From Haloglycomyces albus DSM 45210 (GTDB taxonomy: Bacteria; Actinomycetota; Actinomycetes; Mycobacteriales; Micromonosporaceae), in contig NZ_AZUQ01000001.1 in assembly GCF_000527155.1 (NCBI RefSeq), positions 545,891-609,890 on the forward strand: a DNA stretch of 64,000 bases, read 5' to 3'. The first letter of the stretch is position 1. Every line of letters starts with the position of its first letter. Below are positions 1,449 to 62,050 of the stretch, piece after piece. Made by a program: the position numbers and the translations under genes. The notes under the pieces are model-generated. The model did not search any database and had not been told where the DNA came from. It saw nothing but the letters and a program-made list of their open reading frames with translations.

Positions 1449-3992
1449 GTGTCCAACGTCGAGAACGTTCCACCCGGTCGAGGCCGAGGTCCGCACCTAC
1501 TCGCTCTGGCCGGAGCCGGAGGCCACCCCCTACCGGGGACCTTCGACTCGGCCGAGGCCGTCACCGGGCGACTCAGCGTCGTCTACATCCACTCGTGGGG
1601 CCCGGTCGACACCGAGTCCATGAAGGCCACCTGGTCCGAACGATTCGAGGGAACCTGGACCGACTGCGGCACCGTCGAGGAGCTGTACGAGGCAGTCCGC
1701 ACCGCACACCGCATCGAACCGCTGGACGGTATCGCCGCGTTCTCCGAACTGCTCATCCAGCCACAGGCCGATCTGGCCGCCGAGTTCGGGCTGCCCGGAA
1801 ACCCGCCCGAAGCCGTCCGAATCGCGCAGAACAAACTCCTCCAGCGTCGCACGCTCATCGATTCCGGTGTGCTCGATATGCGCTGCCACCCGATCGCGGG
1901 ACCGGACGACCTCGAGACGGCCGCCGCGCAGGTCGGATTCCCGGCCGTCTTCAAACCGGTCAACGGAGCGGCCAGCTTCAGTGTCCGAAAAGTCCGCGAC
2001 CTTGACGACCTACGCGCCGTATATGAGACGGCCGTGGCCGACGCGGACCGCAATGCCTTCCTCGTCCGCGAAGACCTCTATACCCTGGAGACCCTCTTGG
2101 AGGGTGCACAGTGGCATAGCGATCCGCGCCTAGGCGATTACGCCAGTGTCGAGTCACTCGTCTCGCACGGCGAGATACACCACCTGGCCGTGGTCGACCG
2201 CCTCGCCCTCGGCGAGACGTTCATAGAAGAAGGCCTGCTCTACCCCTCATCGCTGTCCGGCGAAAAGCAGCGGACGGTCCTTGACCACGCCACCGACGTC
2301 ATCCGCGCCGTCGGGCTGACCGACAGCGCCGTCCACACCGAAATCAAGCTGACCCCGAACGGTCCGGTGTGCATCGAGGTCAACGCACGCCTCGGCGGCC
2401 CCATCGGCCGCATGTTCCTGGCCGCGAGCGATCACGACATCATCGAGTCCATCTACCGCATCGCCGCCGGGTTGAAGATACGCGGCGACGCGACACCCCG
2501 CAACGCCGTATGTGGGCGGATGAGACCGTTGCCGTCACGTCCGGTCAGGTTGGCACACATCGCCGACACGAACCAGATCATGGAGGAGGAGACCCACCGG
2601 CTCAAGACCATGGCCCTGCGCGCCAGACCGGGAGACATCGCCGACCCCAGGCGCTACCCACACCTGCTCAGTATGACCGTCACCGGCGCGACACCCGCCG
2701 AATGCCTGGACAACGTGCAGGACATCGAAAAGCGGCTCGACATCCGCTTCGAAGCCGTCGGGCGCGAGAGGGTGGTCTTCCTCGACTACGCCGGCTACGA
2801 CCTCTACCGGACGCCGGTCGGGGCCCCGGTGTTCGATCCCGACCGTTACGACGTCACTCTCTTGACCACGCCGGAAAAGGCAGGGCAGCCGCGCTCTGGA
2901 GAGTGCTCGGCGGTCCTCGGGATCGATTTGGCCGACTCCGCGCTGAGAGACTCGCTTATCGCCACGATCCGGCGCGTCAAGGGAATCGACCGACTGGAGG
3001 TCTTCACCGAGACGCTCCTCGACGACGGTGCCCGCCTTCGGGAGGAACTGGGTATCCTCGGGCCGATGCCGGCCCAGGTGGCGCCCTTCCGCCACAAGCC
3101 CGCAATGAAGGCCACCGCCGAGAGGGCGGGCCTTCCCGTCGCTCCGTGGGCCGCCGTGGCTACCGCCGATGAGGCCGCGGACTTCGCCGCCGAGCACGGT
3201 AAGACGGTACTCAAACCCTGCGGCGGCACCGGCTCCCGGGGAATCCACATCGTCTCCGACGCGAAGGAGGCGGCCAAGACCTTCGCCGAGATCGACGGCG
3301 AGCCGGACGGATACCAGGCCGAGAAGTTCCTTCCCCACCGGCTCTTCCACATCGACGTCGCCGTTCGCGACAGGACGCCGATCGCGAGCGTCACCTCCGA
3401 GTACCTGGCCAGCACCCTCTCCTTCACCACCGGCGATACGCTGCTGTCGGTCACCGTCGACGACCCGGTCATCCTGGACCGGGCGAACAACCTGCTGGAA
3501 CACGTCATTGACGCATTCGGCGTCGAGAACCGCGTCCTGCACTTGGAAGCGTTCCTCGACGACAACGGCGAGTTCATCTTCAACGAGGTGGCCGCCCGCG
3601 CCGGCGGCGGTGGAATAGTACCTCTGGTCGAGTCCGTTACCGGGGTCAACCTCTTCAACGCCATGGTCGCCCTGTCGCAGGACACCCGTCCCGACGACGG
3701 ATACAAGCGCCGGGGACCGCACGGCGGATTCGCCATGTTCTACTCGCCGCCCGGCCGTCTGGAGACCGTCCACGACCGTGACATCCCGGCCGACTGGATC
3801 GTCCAGCGCCGCTTGAGAGTCCAGCCGGGAGAGGTCTACCGCCCAGTCGGCATGGCGGGCGGGTGCATCGCCTGCTACACCATCACGGCCGGCAGCACCG
3901 CCGAAGCGATCGAGCGGTTGGAATTCGTCAACGACGCCGTGTCCTTCACCGTCACACCGCTCGACGCCGGCGACCACGAGGACTCCGCATGA
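1449..3992 (+). CDS. Tandem double ATP-grasp ligase
   Basis: An 847-aa protein with two complete ATP-grasp modules. Module 1 has its ATP loop at about 168-183 (FKPVNGAASFSVRKV) and the metal-binding segment EVNARLGGP at about 310-318. Module 2 starts near residue 450, with the loop KPCGGTGSRG at about 589-598 and NEVAARAGGG near 711. Both modules look like amino-acid ligases, so the protein could perform two successive condensations, or one module could be structural. The GTG at 1449 follows an AAAGGAG at the right distance. It lies 21 bp after the single-module ligase and overlaps the MFS gene by ATGA. Module 1 has a Ser/Phe-containing loop in place of the usual Gly-rich one, so its catalytic competence is uncertain. 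Confidence 0.85.
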   Translation: MSNVENVPPGRGRGPHLLALAGAGGHPLPGTFDSAEAVTGRLSVVYIHSWGPVDTESMKATWSERFEGTWTDCGTVEELYEAVRTAHRIEPLDGIAAFSELLIQPQADLAAEFGLPGNPPEAVRIAQNKLLQRRTLIDSGVLDMRCHPIAGPDDLETAAAQVGFPAVFKPVNGAASFSVRKVRDLDDLRAVYETAVADADRNAFLVREDLYTLETLLEGAQWHSDPRLGDYASVESLVSHGEIHHLAVVDRLALGETFIEEGLLYPSSLSGEKQRTVLDHATDVIRAVGLTDSAVHTEIKLTPNGPVCIEVNARLGGPIGRMFLAASDHDIIESIYRIAAGLKIRGDATPRNAVCGRMRPLPSRPVRLAHIADTNQIMEEETHRLKTMALRARPGDIADPRRYPHLLSMTVTGATPAECLDNVQDIEKRLDIRFEAVGRERVVFLDYAGYDLYRTPVGAPVFDPDRYDVTLLTTPEKAGQPRSGECSAVLGIDLADSALRDSLIATIRRVKGIDRLEVFTETLLDDGARLREELGILGPMPAQVAPFRHKPAMKATAERAGLPVAPWAAVATADEAADFAAEHGKTVLKPCGGTGSRGIHIVSDAKEAAKTFAEIDGEPDGYQAEKFLPHRLFHIDVAVRDRTPIASVTSEYLASTLSFTTGDTLLSVTVDDPVILDRANNLLEHVIDAFGVENRVLHLEAFLDDNGEFIFNEVAARAGGGGIVPLVESVTGVNLFNAMVALSQDTRPDDGYKRRGPHGGFAMFYSPPGRLETVHDRDIPADWIVQRRLRVQPGEVYRPVGMAGGCIACYTITAGSTAEAIERLEFVNDAVSFTVTPLDAGDHEDSA

Positions 3993-58570: not shown

Positions 58571-59609
58571 CAATCATCCCGTCCAAGTGGTGACGTATCT
58601 CGTGGGTATCCATATCACGGTGCTCAAGAATGGTATAACGCCCAGGGCGTGTCGCCGGTGCGTACGCGATGGCTTTTGTGAGGCGGTCCGGGGTGAGACC
58701 CAGTTCCGTAGGCGTCGTCGGCAGTCCATGACGACGATACGCGACGACGAGGTCATCCCACAATTGCCTGTCATCCCGTATCCAGGTGCAGTAAAGCGCT
58801 CCCAGAGCACCTTGCTGGCCGTGACTGCCGGAACCAGGATACAGGTGTTCAATCGCGTGTGCGATCTCATGGCATCCTCCCGAACACGGTCGCGACGATC
58901 CGGCCATCCCCATGGCCAAACCTCCCTGAACCAAGGCGCTCGCCAAGGTGTAGAGGAAATCCGGGTCGTCGATTCCCTTGGGATGCCGTAGCACCGCTTC
59001 GGCGCCGCTGTAGGCGAGCGCCGCTGCCAGGCCGTCGTATCGTTCCGCGGTGTGCCGGTGGGACAGCTGCCAATCCGCCACGGCCGAAAGGTTCGTCAGC
59101 ACGTCGCCGATACCGCTGAAACGCTGCACAGCAGGTGCGCGTAGGACACGATCCAGATCGACTGCGATCGCCAAGGGCGTATGGACGCCGTAGGACGTGG
59201 AGACGCCGTTTTCATTGCGAAGACTTGCCACTGGGGAGGCGATTCCGTCGTGGGCCAGGGAGGTGGCGACGGCGACCAATGGGGTCCCCAGTTCTGTGGC
59301 GGCGTATTTCGCGGTGTCGATCACTCGGCCTCCACCAAGGGCGACCAGTGCGTCGATGTCGCTGGTCTTCAACAGTCGGGCGAGATCGCGAGCATGTGAC
59401 AGATCGCCCGCCTCGATGACGTGTGTCGTGGCCTGCGGCAAATTTAGATCCGCGACCAGGTCGTGGCCTATACCGGTTCCGGCTACGACCGCGACCCGCC
59501 CGGTCGGGGCGATGTTCGTTTCCCGCAGGAGTGTGGGCAGGTGATCTATGGCATCGGATCGGATTTCCACTGCCAGTGGGGCGAGGACGGTCCGAGCTAG
59601 GAGCGGCAT
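58557..59609 (-). CDS. Glycerol-1-phosphate-dehydrogenase-like enzyme
   Basis: 350 aa from ATG 59609 (AAAGGA upstream), iron/zinc-dependent dehydrogenase family. NAD(P)-binding ALGGGRVIDTAKY and ATSLAHDGIASPVAS (metal-binding Asp) match the EgsA/AraM glycerol-1-phosphate dehydrogenases. SSRPCSGGCHEIAHAIEHL and GSHGQQGALG supply the metal-binding His residues. Those enzymes reduce DHAP to sn-glycerol 1-phosphate. It is sandwiched between a nucleotidyltransferase (13-bp overlap) and a TagG-like permease, suggesting a glycerol-phosphate or related polyol unit of a surface polymer. A dehydroquinate-synthase-like relative remains possible. Confidence 0.75.
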   Translation of the reverse strand: MPLLARTVLAPLAVEIRSDAIDHLPTLLRETNIAPTGRVAVVAGTGIGHDLVADLNLPQATTHVIEAGDLSHARDLARLLKTSDIDALVALGGGRVIDTAKYAATELGTPLVAVATSLAHDGIASPVASLRNENGVSTSYGVHTPLAIAVDLDRVLRAPAVQRFSGIGDVLTNLSAVADWQLSHRHTAERYDGLAAALAYSGAEAVLRHPKGIDDPDFLYTLASALVQGGLAMGMAGSSRPCSGGCHEIAHAIEHLYPGSGSHGQQGALGALYCTWIRDDRQLWDDLVVAYRRHGLPTTPTELGLTPDRLTKAIAYAPATRPGRYTILEHRDMDTHEIRHHLDGMIDELG

Positions 59610-60328
59610 GCGAGTTCCTTTGCGCGGTTCCAGTCGTCGTGATCGTCGACCTCGGTCCACTCGACGGCCCCAATGGGAACCTCGGCCACCAGGTGTTTTT
59701 CCGCCAGAATCTGGTAGGCGTCCTCGTAGTACAGGTCGGGGTTATTACGGAAGGTGGTTTCCAATGCGCTGGTCAGATCGTCCGCGCGAGCGGCGGGAAT
59801 GAGACTGACGCCGATGTATTCGCCGACCGCGTTGTCGCGAGGCTGCTGCTTATGTATCAGGTCGACCGTGCCGTCGGTGCCGAGCCGCACTTTCATCGCC
59901 TCGTCGGTCAGGTCGTGGTAGTCGTCCACCGCCAGAAGCAGCTGACGACCTTCGTCCACGTCCATGAGACGTTCTTCCACGCTGTGTGGATGGAACGTGT
60001 CCCCGTTGACCAAGACGGCTCCGTCGCGATAGTGCGCACGGGCGGTCCACAGCGAATAGGCGTTGTTCCATTCGGGATGGTCGTTGTCGACCAAAGTCAG
60101 TTTGACGTCGTGCCGTTCTTCCAAGATGTGTTGCCGTCGGCGGATCTCTTCGGCGGCATGGCCGACGGTGACGGCGATATCGGTGATTCCCACGGCGACG
60201 AGTCCGGACAGGATCGTATCCAGGATGGTTTCGCCCTGGTCGTTGAGAGGCAGAAGGGTCTTGGGGATGTCATCGGTGTCCGGACGGAGTCGTTGCCCTT
60301 GGCCCGCAGCTAGGATTATGCCTCTCAC
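59597..60328 (-). CDS. Sugar/polyol-phosphate nucleotidyltransferase
   Basis: 243 aa from GTG 60328 (AAAGG 7 nt upstream). N-terminal ILAAGQGQRLRPDTDDIPKTLLPL is the nucleotidyltransferase signature (GxGxR...K). LVNGDTFHP holds the metal-binding Asp. It belongs to the short GlmU-N/phosphocholine-cytidylyltransferase-like group, so a CDP- or NDP-activated product is likely. It is the first gene of the operon with the dehydrogenase and permease; together they fit activation and export of a surface glycopolymer building block. Confidence 0.8.
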   Translation of the reverse strand: MRGIILAAGQGQRLRPDTDDIPKTLLPLNDQGETILDTILSGLVAVGITDIAVTVGHAAEEIRRRQHILEERHDVKLTLVDNDHPEWNNAYSLWTARAHYRDGAVLVNGDTFHPHSVEERLMDVDEGRQLLLAVDDYHDLTDEAMKVRLGTDGTVDLIHKQQPRDNAVGEYIGVSLIPAARADDLTSALETTFRNNPDLYYEDAYQILAEKHLVAEVPIGAVEWTEVDDHDDWNRAKELACRS

Positions 60329-60454
60329 AATGCGCCTTTCTGATGGGTCGATTTCGTATCAAGAGTACCGCGTGACTCAATACTCAGCGGATTCACCGGT
60401 CCAATCAAAAAATTCCCGGCAATTCAACTCCAGAGCAAGCGAATCGAAATCCTC

Positions 60455-60706
60455 AGCGGCGACGAACCGGACCACCAGAGCACGGCGGAACGATGCTGCG
60501 GTAGAACACCCAATGCGTTCGACCAGGGCTCTGACCACCACACTCTCCCCAAGGAGGCGCCGACTCTCGAACCGCAACCACAGAAAAACTGCGACGCGGC
60601 GGTAGAGCTAACCGTGCGTTCGAAAGAGCGCTGCCATCACTCCATCCCCGGGGACGAGCCAACTGGCGAGCCGCAAGCACTGAAAGTGCGACGCGGCGGT
60701 AGAGCT
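60455..60706. repeat. About 100-bp tandem repeats (two full, one partial)
   Basis: The core TGCGACGCGGCGGTAGAGCT occurs exactly at 60590-60609 and 60687-60706 and in degenerate form at 60489-60508, at periods of 97 and 101 bp. Segments around it also repeat (TGCGTTCGA at the same offset after the first two cores; CGAACCGCAA-CAC before the second and CGAGCCGCAAGCAC before the third). The periods are not multiples of three, so this is not coding. It fills the nucleotidyltransferase-icd gap (60329-60826), where I support no gene. Confidence 0.75.
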
Positions 60707-60714
60707 GGAGAGGA

Positions 60715-60824
60715 GCTGAGATTGTTCCAGGTGCTTCAGATTTGCGCGCGGAGGACTCGTAGCGGCCTTATGGCCGCAAGAGGCCCCCACAGCGCAAATA
60801 TGGAGTGCCTGGGGCAATCTCAGC
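60715..60824. repeat. Long inverted repeat with 33-bp arms
   Basis: GCTGAGATTG... (60715-60747) pairs with ...CAATCTCAGC (60792-60824). As + strand RNA, 27 positions are Watson-Crick, five are G-U wobbles and one is a G-A mismatch. The same wobbles would be A-C mismatches on the - strand. The 44-nt loop contains its own hairpin GCGGCC-TTAT-GGCCGC. It ends 2 bp before the icd stop codon and may act as its terminator or be part of a mobile repeat. Confidence 0.75.
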
Positions 60825-60826
60825 GG

Positions 60827-62050
60827 TCAGCTCTCAACCCGCTTTTTGGCGAGGTTGTCCGCCAGCGCGTCGAGGAACTCGTCGGTGGTCAGCCAGTCTT
60901 GCTCGCCGCCGACCAGCAGGGCGAGGTCCTTGGTCATCTTGCCGCTTTCGACCGTTTCGATGACGGTTTTCTCGAGGTCGTCGGCGAACTGAGTGACCTC
61001 CGGGGTCTCGTCCAGCTTGCCACGGTGTGCCAGTCCCCGCGTCCAGGCGAAGATGGAGGCCACCGGGTTGGTGGAGGTTTGTTTACCGGCCTGCCATTGG
61101 CGGTAGTGCCGGGTGACCGTACCGTGCGCGGCTTCGGCCTCCATGGTCTTGCCGTCCGGGGTCATCAGCACCGACGTCATGAGTCCCAGCGATCCGAAAC
61201 CCTGGGCGACGGTGTCGGACTGGACGTCGCCGTCGTAGTTCTTGCAGGCCCATACGTACCCGCCTTCCCACTTCAGGGCGGCGGCGACCATGTCGTCGAT
61301 CAGGCGGTGCTCGTAGGTGAGGCCGCGTTCGTCGAACTCTGCCTTGAATTCGTTGTCGAAGACCTCTTGGAAGACGTCTTTGAACATGCCGTCGTAGGCT
61401 TTGAGGATGGTGTTCTTGGTGGACATGTACACCGGGTAGTTGCGAGCCAGGCCGTAGCGGAAGGAGGCCCGGGCGAAGTCCTCGATCGACTTGCGGAAGT
61501 TGTACATGCTCATGGCCACGCCGCCGCCTTCGGGGTAACGTGCCACTTCGAATTCAACCGGCTCGGAGTCGTCGTCGGGGGTGAAGGTGACCGTCAGCGT
61601 GCCGGGTCCGTCGACTTTGAAGTCCGTCGCCTTGTATTGGTCACCGTGGGCGTGACGTCCGATGATGATGGGCTGCGTCCAGCCCGGGACCAGGCGGGGG
61701 ACATTGCTCATGATGATCGGCTCGCGGAATACGACGCCGCCGAGGATGTTCCGGATGGTTCCGTTGGGCGAGCGCCACATTTTCTTGAGGCCGAATTCTT
61801 CGACGCGTGCCTCGTCAGGGGTGATGGTCGCGCACTTGACGCCGACGTTGTGCTCGGCGATCGCGTTGGCGGCGTCGACGGTGACCTGGTCGTCGGTGGC
61901 GTCGCGGTTCTGCACTGAGAGGTCGTAGTAACGCAGGTCCACGTCCAGATAGGGGTGGATGAGTTCGTCTTTGATCTTTTGCCAGATGATGCGGGTCATT
62001 TCGTCGCCGTCGAGCTCGACGACGGGACCGTTGACTTTGATCTTAGCCAT
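60827..62050 (-). CDS. icd: NADP-dependent isocitrate dehydrogenase
   Basis: 407 aa, homodimeric eukaryote-like type. It begins [19 protein letters not shown]; the substrate loop has [12 protein letters not shown] and the metal/substrate site [27 protein letters not shown]-binding [17 protein letters not shown] follows. It oxidises isocitrate to 2-oxoglutarate, the substrate of the KorAB enzyme encoded elsewhere in the window. AAGGAGG is 7 nt before the ATG. Confidence 0.96.

Follow-up and report, generated by a model that had tools for sequence, protein, structure and literature searches.

Small dispersed repeats are common in bacteria, and to our knowledge the familiar kinds are bounded by inverted repeats or consist of simple palindromes. 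REP sequences and BIMEs, which occur together with RAYT transposases, are intergenic palindromes present in many copies at the 3' ends of genes and combined in composite arrays; the REP hairpin adjoins a GTAG-containing motif. The mycobacterial interspersed repetitive units (MIRUs) are actinobacterial tandem intergenic repeats located between co-directional genes of operons. They are not known to have a long terminal hairpin, and their ends may carry the TGA stop codon of the neighboring gene. The BOX elements of Streptococcus pneumoniae have a boxA-boxB(n)-boxC architecture (PMC3049150). The MITE-type mobile sequences RUP, CIR, and Correia are characterized as short, structured, non-coding, and dispersed sequences without an enzyme of their own (PMC2229807).

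Here, a composite intergenic element next to icd was analyzed in a window of 64,000 nucleotides from the genome of Haloglycomyces albus (3,535,419 bases, one contig), which contains about 54 dispersed copies of it. We consider it probable that this family is a lineage-specific, non-autonomous mobile element whose copies, the one in the window included, entered gene ends with the hairpin end leading. A search of open-licence PMC papers retrieved no description of such a family.

The element next to icd and its family in the genome

The tandem repeats with a conserved core and the stem-loop reported for this gap by the initial annotation are real. One repeat pair (24 nt at 60586-60609 and 60683-60706) is 96% identical with a spacing of 97, and a second pair (32 nt at 60491-60522 and 60592-60623) is 75% identical with a spacing of 101. 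The stem-loop begins 9 nt beyond the last core, as described; its arms, given as 33 bp, are 53 nt long each and 72% complementary. The element had been placed before icd. As this gene is located on the minus strand, the element follows icd, whose stop codon lies inside the last bases of the element (Table 1).

Table 1. Features of the composite element and of the adjacent genes (positions within the window)
Feature	Position	Strand	Remarks
Nucleotidyltransferase-like gene (named by eye)	59597..60328	-	Start faces the 5' (unit) side of the element
Decayed older tandem unit	60500..60600	+	101 bp, GGTAGAAC anchor; ends in a degenerate inner hairpin, CCGC 60572-60575 / GCGGC 60596-60600
Hairpin-proximal unit	60601..60697	+	97 bp: GGTAGAGCT anchor, C-rich linker, inner hairpin GCCGC 60670-60674 / GCGGC 60693-60697; the inner helix covaries among copies
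Conserved linker GGTAGAGCTGGAGAGGA preceding the long hairpin	60698..60714	+	
Terminal type A hairpin	60715..60824	+	Arms 60715-60767 and 60772-60824, loop 60768-60771 (4 nt)
Tail core AGCGGTCA, equal to TGACCGCT on the minus strand	60822..60829	+	Contains the TGA stop codon of icd
icd, NADP isocitrate dehydrogenase	60827..62050	-	Faces the element; stop codon 60827-60829 within the tail

The region 60560-60835 folds with z-scores of −7.1 (plus strand) and −7.3 (minus strand), and none of 200 shuffled sequences was equally stable on either strand. The hairpin alone reaches −74.8 kcal/mol on the plus strand and −65.9 kcal/mol on the minus strand; the imperfections of the arms had nearly all been interpreted as G-U pairs on the plus strand, and such pairs are indeed added there. 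Beyond the hairpin, the plus strand reads GGTCAGCTCTC and the minus strand CTCCTCTCCAGC, with a T-run on neither. A present-day role as terminator of icd, one of the functions suggested before, is possible; a canonical intrinsic terminator would carry such a run behind a G+C-rich hairpin. A comparison of positions 60300-60900 with Rfam gave nothing above the gathering score, the sole entry being MIR1437 (26.9 bits vs. a threshold of 168). At 60702-60719, pairing between the linker's GAGCT and the AGCT that forms the base of the long hairpin is conceivable and would compete with the latter; the units might allow a similar GAGCT/AGCTC pairing.

The open reading frame 60614-61918 was not accepted as a gene because the unit lengths vary (76-111 bp, in low-scoring units up to 128 bp) and because the frame that is open across the hairpin of the window meets a stop codon in the A2 hairpins (by eye). 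An origin from tRNA was rejected as well: the motif GCGGTAGAGC resembles a tRNA D-arm, yet ARAGORN predicted 0 tRNAs in 50 copies.

The search for further genomic copies was strongly positive. With blastn, 48 matches grouped into 41 sites were obtained in the genome itself. Using nhmmer, the sites were split into units and hairpins over the fetched stretches, and pattern scans (tail, linker, and inner hairpin) and a covariance model added further sites, among them a second hairpin type. The 54 copies comprise 41 of type A (E01-E40 and 991582), 12 of type B (B01-B10, 2011944, and 2083726), and a degenerate one (971185). The two hairpin types have their length and layout in common but diverge over much of the sequence. 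A model (R1) of 39 type A hairpins recovered the 11 type B copies supplied with E-values of 1e-18 to 3e-9 and found the twelfth in the genome search; types A and B thus form a single family despite the differing middle sequences. The covariance search scored 150 of 1884 candidates in the own genome, so that further decayed copies may exist, and one match (1498210, E 1e-4) was judged to be due to chance on reading. That the element consists of chance repeats next to an ordinary terminator can be practically dismissed: the intergenic location of the gap is the only point in favor, and about 54 copies and a folding z-score of about −7 rule it out.

The copies follow a common layout: head-to-tail units of about 100 bp, each with a small inner hairpin, the linker GGTAGAGCTGG / GGTAGAGCTGGAGARGA, the terminal hairpin, and a tail, GCGGTCACC(CACCAACCAAA) / AGCGGTCACC, which continues into CACC/AACC/AAA stretches of variable length. 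Among 50 copies, recognizable whole units number zero in 8, one in 20, two in 19, and three in 3, and most units are 84-111 bp long. The closing helix of the inner hairpin is CCGC/GCGGC in 33 of 59 cases, CTTC/GAAGC in 23, CCGC/GTGGC in 2, and mismatched in 1. The terminal hairpin spans 111-112 nt in 47 of the 50 copies measured (type A, 111 nt in 37 of 40; type B, 112 nt in 9 of 10). Units score progressively lower the farther they lie from the hairpin, with means of 46 bits for the nearest (n = 43), 30 bits for the second (n = 26), and 20 bits for the third (n = 7), so that the copies have a ragged 5' border and a sharp 3' border. Hairpins are also more uniform than units (median identity 87% vs. 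63%), and 38 of the 741 pairs of type A hairpins are at least 97% identical. This homogeneity could stem from gene conversion instead of recent insertion. Copy pairs that diverge from each other were considered as ends of a composite transposon and rejected, since the genes between them are ordinary-looking (superoxide dismutase-like, NlpC/P60-like, and carbohydrate-binding-like; by eye).

Strand preference of the folds

The plus strand was the more stable one in 48 of 50 terminal hairpins, by 17.7 kcal/mol on average. The 50 folds contain 279 G-U pairs on the plus strand vs. 54 on the minus strand; therefore, the plus strand, which runs from the units to the hairpin, is the strand that must fold. 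The two exceptions in stability are E29 (L017:2965-3096, minus strand), in which the interior of the hairpin is inverted, and 3212244 (L122:3045-3177, plus strand), in which one arm was apparently copied onto the other (both by eye). Such rearrangements are as expected of template switching within a palindrome.

In alignments from which E29, 3212244, and the shortened E41/B10 were excluded, 15 of 42 predicted pairs of type A (39 sequences) and 11 of 47 predicted pairs of type B (8 sequences) were altered on both sides. For the type A structure, 99.1% of the cells are paired, and 101 cells are doubly changed vs. 23 ± 4 after shuffling; many of the 101 reflect one switch common to about eight copies, so that the number of independent events is lower. 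A tandem U-G/G-U step (GTGC facing GTGC) is retained at equal height in both types. Selection acting on a plus-strand RNA would be expected to produce this pairing pattern, and single-stranded plus-strand DNA would be compatible with it as well, as G-U polarity does not separate RNA from single-stranded DNA with certainty.

The unit region behaves differently. The plus strand folds better in 19 of 51 units, and the minus strand is the more stable by 1.8 kcal/mol on average; RNAalifold retains the inner hairpin only. The lack of a plus-strand preference in this region speaks against the whole element as one plus-strand RNA. The ncRNA proposed by the initial annotation is half supported, namely by the conserved plus-strand structure of the long hairpin with its G-U polarity but not by the units.

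The same data bear on a bacterial SINE-like retroelement, in which a plus-strand RNA with a 3' hairpin and a simple-repeat tail would be copied into DNA at gene ends through target priming, so that its 3' ends would be fixed and its 5' ends ragged. The RNA-type covariation including G-U pairs, the sharp 3' side, where the C/A-rich tail varies in length, and the ragged 5' side all agree with this scheme. We nevertheless regard it as unlikely, as no PF00078 reverse transcriptase, the enzyme by which group II introns and retrons would likewise be recognized, was detected in the genome (3 of 14 control genomes were positive) and the copying enzyme would have to be lost, diverged past the profile, or acting from elsewhere.

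Gene ends and the origin of the copies

In 32 of 41 copies, the closest gene on the far side of the tail is oriented toward the element (48% expected). A facing stop codon is located −10 to +9 nt from the core TGACCG in 30 of 54 copies, whereas 7.1% of eligible placements, a null derived from the 64-kb window only, satisfy this measure (p about 1e-20). Genes were called by a codon model trained on the window and made for this analysis, not by a published tool. The 30 copies are 28 of 50 plus 991582 and 2083726; 971185 and 2011944 were unscored and counted as not adjacent, and B08 (with it, 29 of 50) was dropped since its stop codon belongs to a weak open reading frame antisense to a called gene. 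The remaining 24 of the 54 copies lie away from a stop codon by the same measure.

The TGA of the tail itself serves as the stop codon of 13 facing genes including icd (12 of 50 without B08, plus 991582). The other stop-adjacent genes end with TAG, TAA, or TGA, located within the tail, shortly before it, or, in E29, barely inside the hairpin. A lysozyme-like gene at E06 and a PNPase-like gene at E07 (by eye) read into the hairpin; in L024 and L032, the PNPase-like and the lysozyme-like gene extend about 20 and 37 codons into it, respectively, before they stop. At E10 and E27, it is an outer, duplicated copy of the tail that the gene adjoins; E21 and E28 closely follow a terminator-like hairpin with a T-run, and E40 begins about 14 nt past a tRNA-Met gene that points toward it. 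Further facing genes (by eye) include dnaA, recN, and clpC-like, sigma factor, and thioredoxin genes. The C-termini of L18, RecR, and RlmB match those of solved homologues last residue to last residue, and these stop codons are therefore in their native positions. NadE, UDP-glucose dehydrogenase, and Icd end within a few residues of solved homologues, so that all six proteins compared agree (facing proteins read: 35 plus L18).

With dnaA taken as the origin and the terminus assumed to be opposite it, 33 of 49 copies are directed against the replication fork (hand count), which could reflect co-directional facing genes. On one side of dnaA, 13 of the 49 listed copies are found within 0.41 Mb (0.79-1.20 Mb of the genome), and the copy density may be raised near the origin. 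At genome position 160530 (L110, about 3031-3044), a tail-like motif without a hairpin, GAGCGGTCACCCAC, is separated by about ten bases from the 3' terminus of a tRNA-Gln gene; it may be a lone tail, a remnant, or a product of chance.

The placement also bears on a free-standing regulatory RNA family transcribed from the plus strand and acting in trans. Such a family would account for a plus-strand structure kept in two diverged types, but we hold it to be very unlikely: the copies have no constant 5' end able to hold a promoter, the orientation of the upstream gene is about even (20 of 41 on the plus strand), Rfam gave nothing above its threshold, and the copies are tied to the ends of facing genes. 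A variant of the SINE-like scheme in which the RNA would be copied at stop codons, with gene ends being recognized via transcription or translation rather than by a DNA motif and the 3' ends of core genes being rewritten (icd, dnaA, recR, the L18 gene, nadE, and others; names partly by eye), appears improbable to us.

The main rival to a mobile element is a resident 3'-end module under selection, that is, bidirectional terminators or 3' stabilizers native to gene ends that gene conversion homogenizes and replaces, with mobility being ancient or slight. We regard it as possible, though clearly the weaker candidate. The share of copies at stop codons, the uniformity of the hairpins relative to the units, the arm inversion or arm-to-arm copying in E29 and 3212244, and the terminator-like hairpins that adjoin E21 and E28 all agree with it, as does what resembles the replacement of one hairpin by another: the gene ends upstream of E35 and E38 are paralogous (L043:3076-3717 and L049:3044-3689; 83% identical across 652 bp), yet the two copies carry different hairpins. 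At these loci, the gene pair was perhaps duplicated along with the repeat. The G-U polarity on the plus strand, however, is not explained by the needs of a terminator because the facing gene is read from the minus strand. Other hairpins following genes in the fetched stretches (30 of 132 genes) start a median of 27 nt after the stop codon (7 of 30 within 0-9 nt), whereas those of the stop-adjacent copies start about 2-14 nt after it. The missing T-run, the use of the tail's TGA by thirteen genes, and the failure to find copies in the relatives searched argue further against a resident module.

Some copies bear traces of each other. In E35, the right half of another hairpin stands behind a complete type A hairpin with its tail, and in E15, B07 (1996719), and B04 (696360) the tail is followed by fragments of another right arm (all by eye). 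A target-site duplication was not detected: the longest word shared by the flanks averages 5.78 vs. 5.67 ± 0.15 in swapped pairs (50 copies), and words of 8 or more occur in 12% of the copies vs. 5% in swapped pairs, both values being subject to an ill-defined 5' border. Since no second genome of the genus appeared among the searched sets and no empty site was seen, insertion is deduced from the copies and the gene ends. The tail of E30 is repeated four times in tandem (L025, about 2990-3095, on the minus strand) and passes into an AACC microsatellite with roughly ten units. Two copies of a segment no shorter than 4 kb, 95% identical to each other, are found in the genome (L118:5-4051 and L121:1-4045, near 1.61 and 2.63 Mb).

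The mobile element that we favor fits the sharp 3' side, the ragged 5' side, the outward decay of the units, the tails inside the arms of other copies, and the plus-strand folding. It would spread via a single-stranded plus-strand form, either RNA or DNA, which folds into the long hairpin. The hairpin and tail end would be joined first, at the 3' end of a gene, and the 5' end would be completed at variable points, often by homology to resident units; because this completion would use the units already there, arrays would grow on the gene-proximal side. Once seated, the hairpin would replace the 3' end of the gene, with the tail supplying the stop codon in about a quarter of the copies, and it probably acts as a transcript end or as a hairpin stabilizing the RNA. 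Stop codons might be favored because the RNA is free of ribosomes there, which could expose single-stranded DNA. Under both the mobile element and the resident module, the present 3' end of these genes is formed by the hairpin.

Relatives, enzymes, and described repeat families

A copy was found by blastn in 0 of 60 relatives (4-11 candidates scored per genome) and by the covariance model in 0 of 100 (stricter filters, 33 candidates scored per genome). In the two genomes with the closest icd (90%), nothing resembling the element follows this gene (by eye); the best named icd match returned was that of Glycomyces lechevalierae (88%). The gap is hence unconserved in the relatives searched. The initial annotation would have discarded the element given a lack of further copies and of a transcript together with an unconserved gap; further copies exist, although the gap is unconserved. 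The searches of relatives, three in all, had limited sensitivity. A loose two-part pattern with 43 matches in the own genome (reversed control, 1) had at least one match in 333 of 353 other genomes of the taxonomic family, at most 12 each and usually above the reversed control. The matches elsewhere are presumably background, as those listed resemble coding DNA by eye; the search excludes a rich family elsewhere, not single copies. An exact 22-base pattern gave 0 matches in a collection of 84,980 named species, in which the own or very near records may be absent. Plasmid and phage collections gave no match, and a pattern search of viral contigs gave 3 matches, all one unrelated-looking sequence.

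Neither the Y1 (RAYT) transposase PF01797, present in 5 of 14 control genomes, nor PF04986, the Y2 HUH transposase of IS91/Helitron-type rolling-circle elements, which had no match in the control genomes either, was detected in the genome. The mobile REP-like element was the best of the three initial guesses. Its mobile part accords with the many genomic copies, its REP part does not: no Y1/RAYT gene was found, and the units are arranged head-to-tail. REP/BIME arrays, which the family resembles in its many intergenic palindromes at the 3' ends of genes, its composite arrays, and a hairpin adjoining a GTAG-containing motif, differ further in that their short palindromes alternate in orientation, whereas direct units and a hairpin of about 111 nt at one end are present here. 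With MIRU, compared by description only, the family shares tandem intergenic repeats and a TGA at the repeat end that can serve the neighboring gene. In contrast to MIRU, the gene enters the element from the hairpin side.

With MITE-type sequences, the family shares its short, structured, non-coding, and dispersed nature and the lack of an own enzyme (PMC2229807). It differs from them in that terminal inverted repeats are not found at both ends, both hairpin arms being on the 3' side and the 5' side ragged, and in that no target duplication was detected, with the 5' border being ill defined. From intrinsic terminators, the hairpin of the window is set apart by the lack of a T-run on either strand.

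The nearest architecture, compared by layout and not by sequence, appears to be that of BOX. BOX is likewise a composite dispersed repeat with a variable count of tandem middle modules and a predicted RNA fold, with elements nested in one another and a proliferation inside one lineage (PMC3049150). Unlike BOX, the family described here ends in a single long hairpin, and its opposite end lacks a constant module; decay of the units runs one way, and stop codons adjoin the end with the hairpin.

What distinguishes the family from the familiar kinds of repeats is that one end is a hairpin of near-fixed length, in which the sequence was turned over while the plus-strand pairing was kept, and that this end meets a stop codon within about ten bases in more than half of the copies, core genes among them. 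If this results from insertion, some process marks the ends of translation for a mobile element; if it results from selection, dozens of genes in one genome have been equipped with a shared 3'-end module. The tails also show how the stop codon of a gene can be taken over by an element with the end of the protein apparently preserved.
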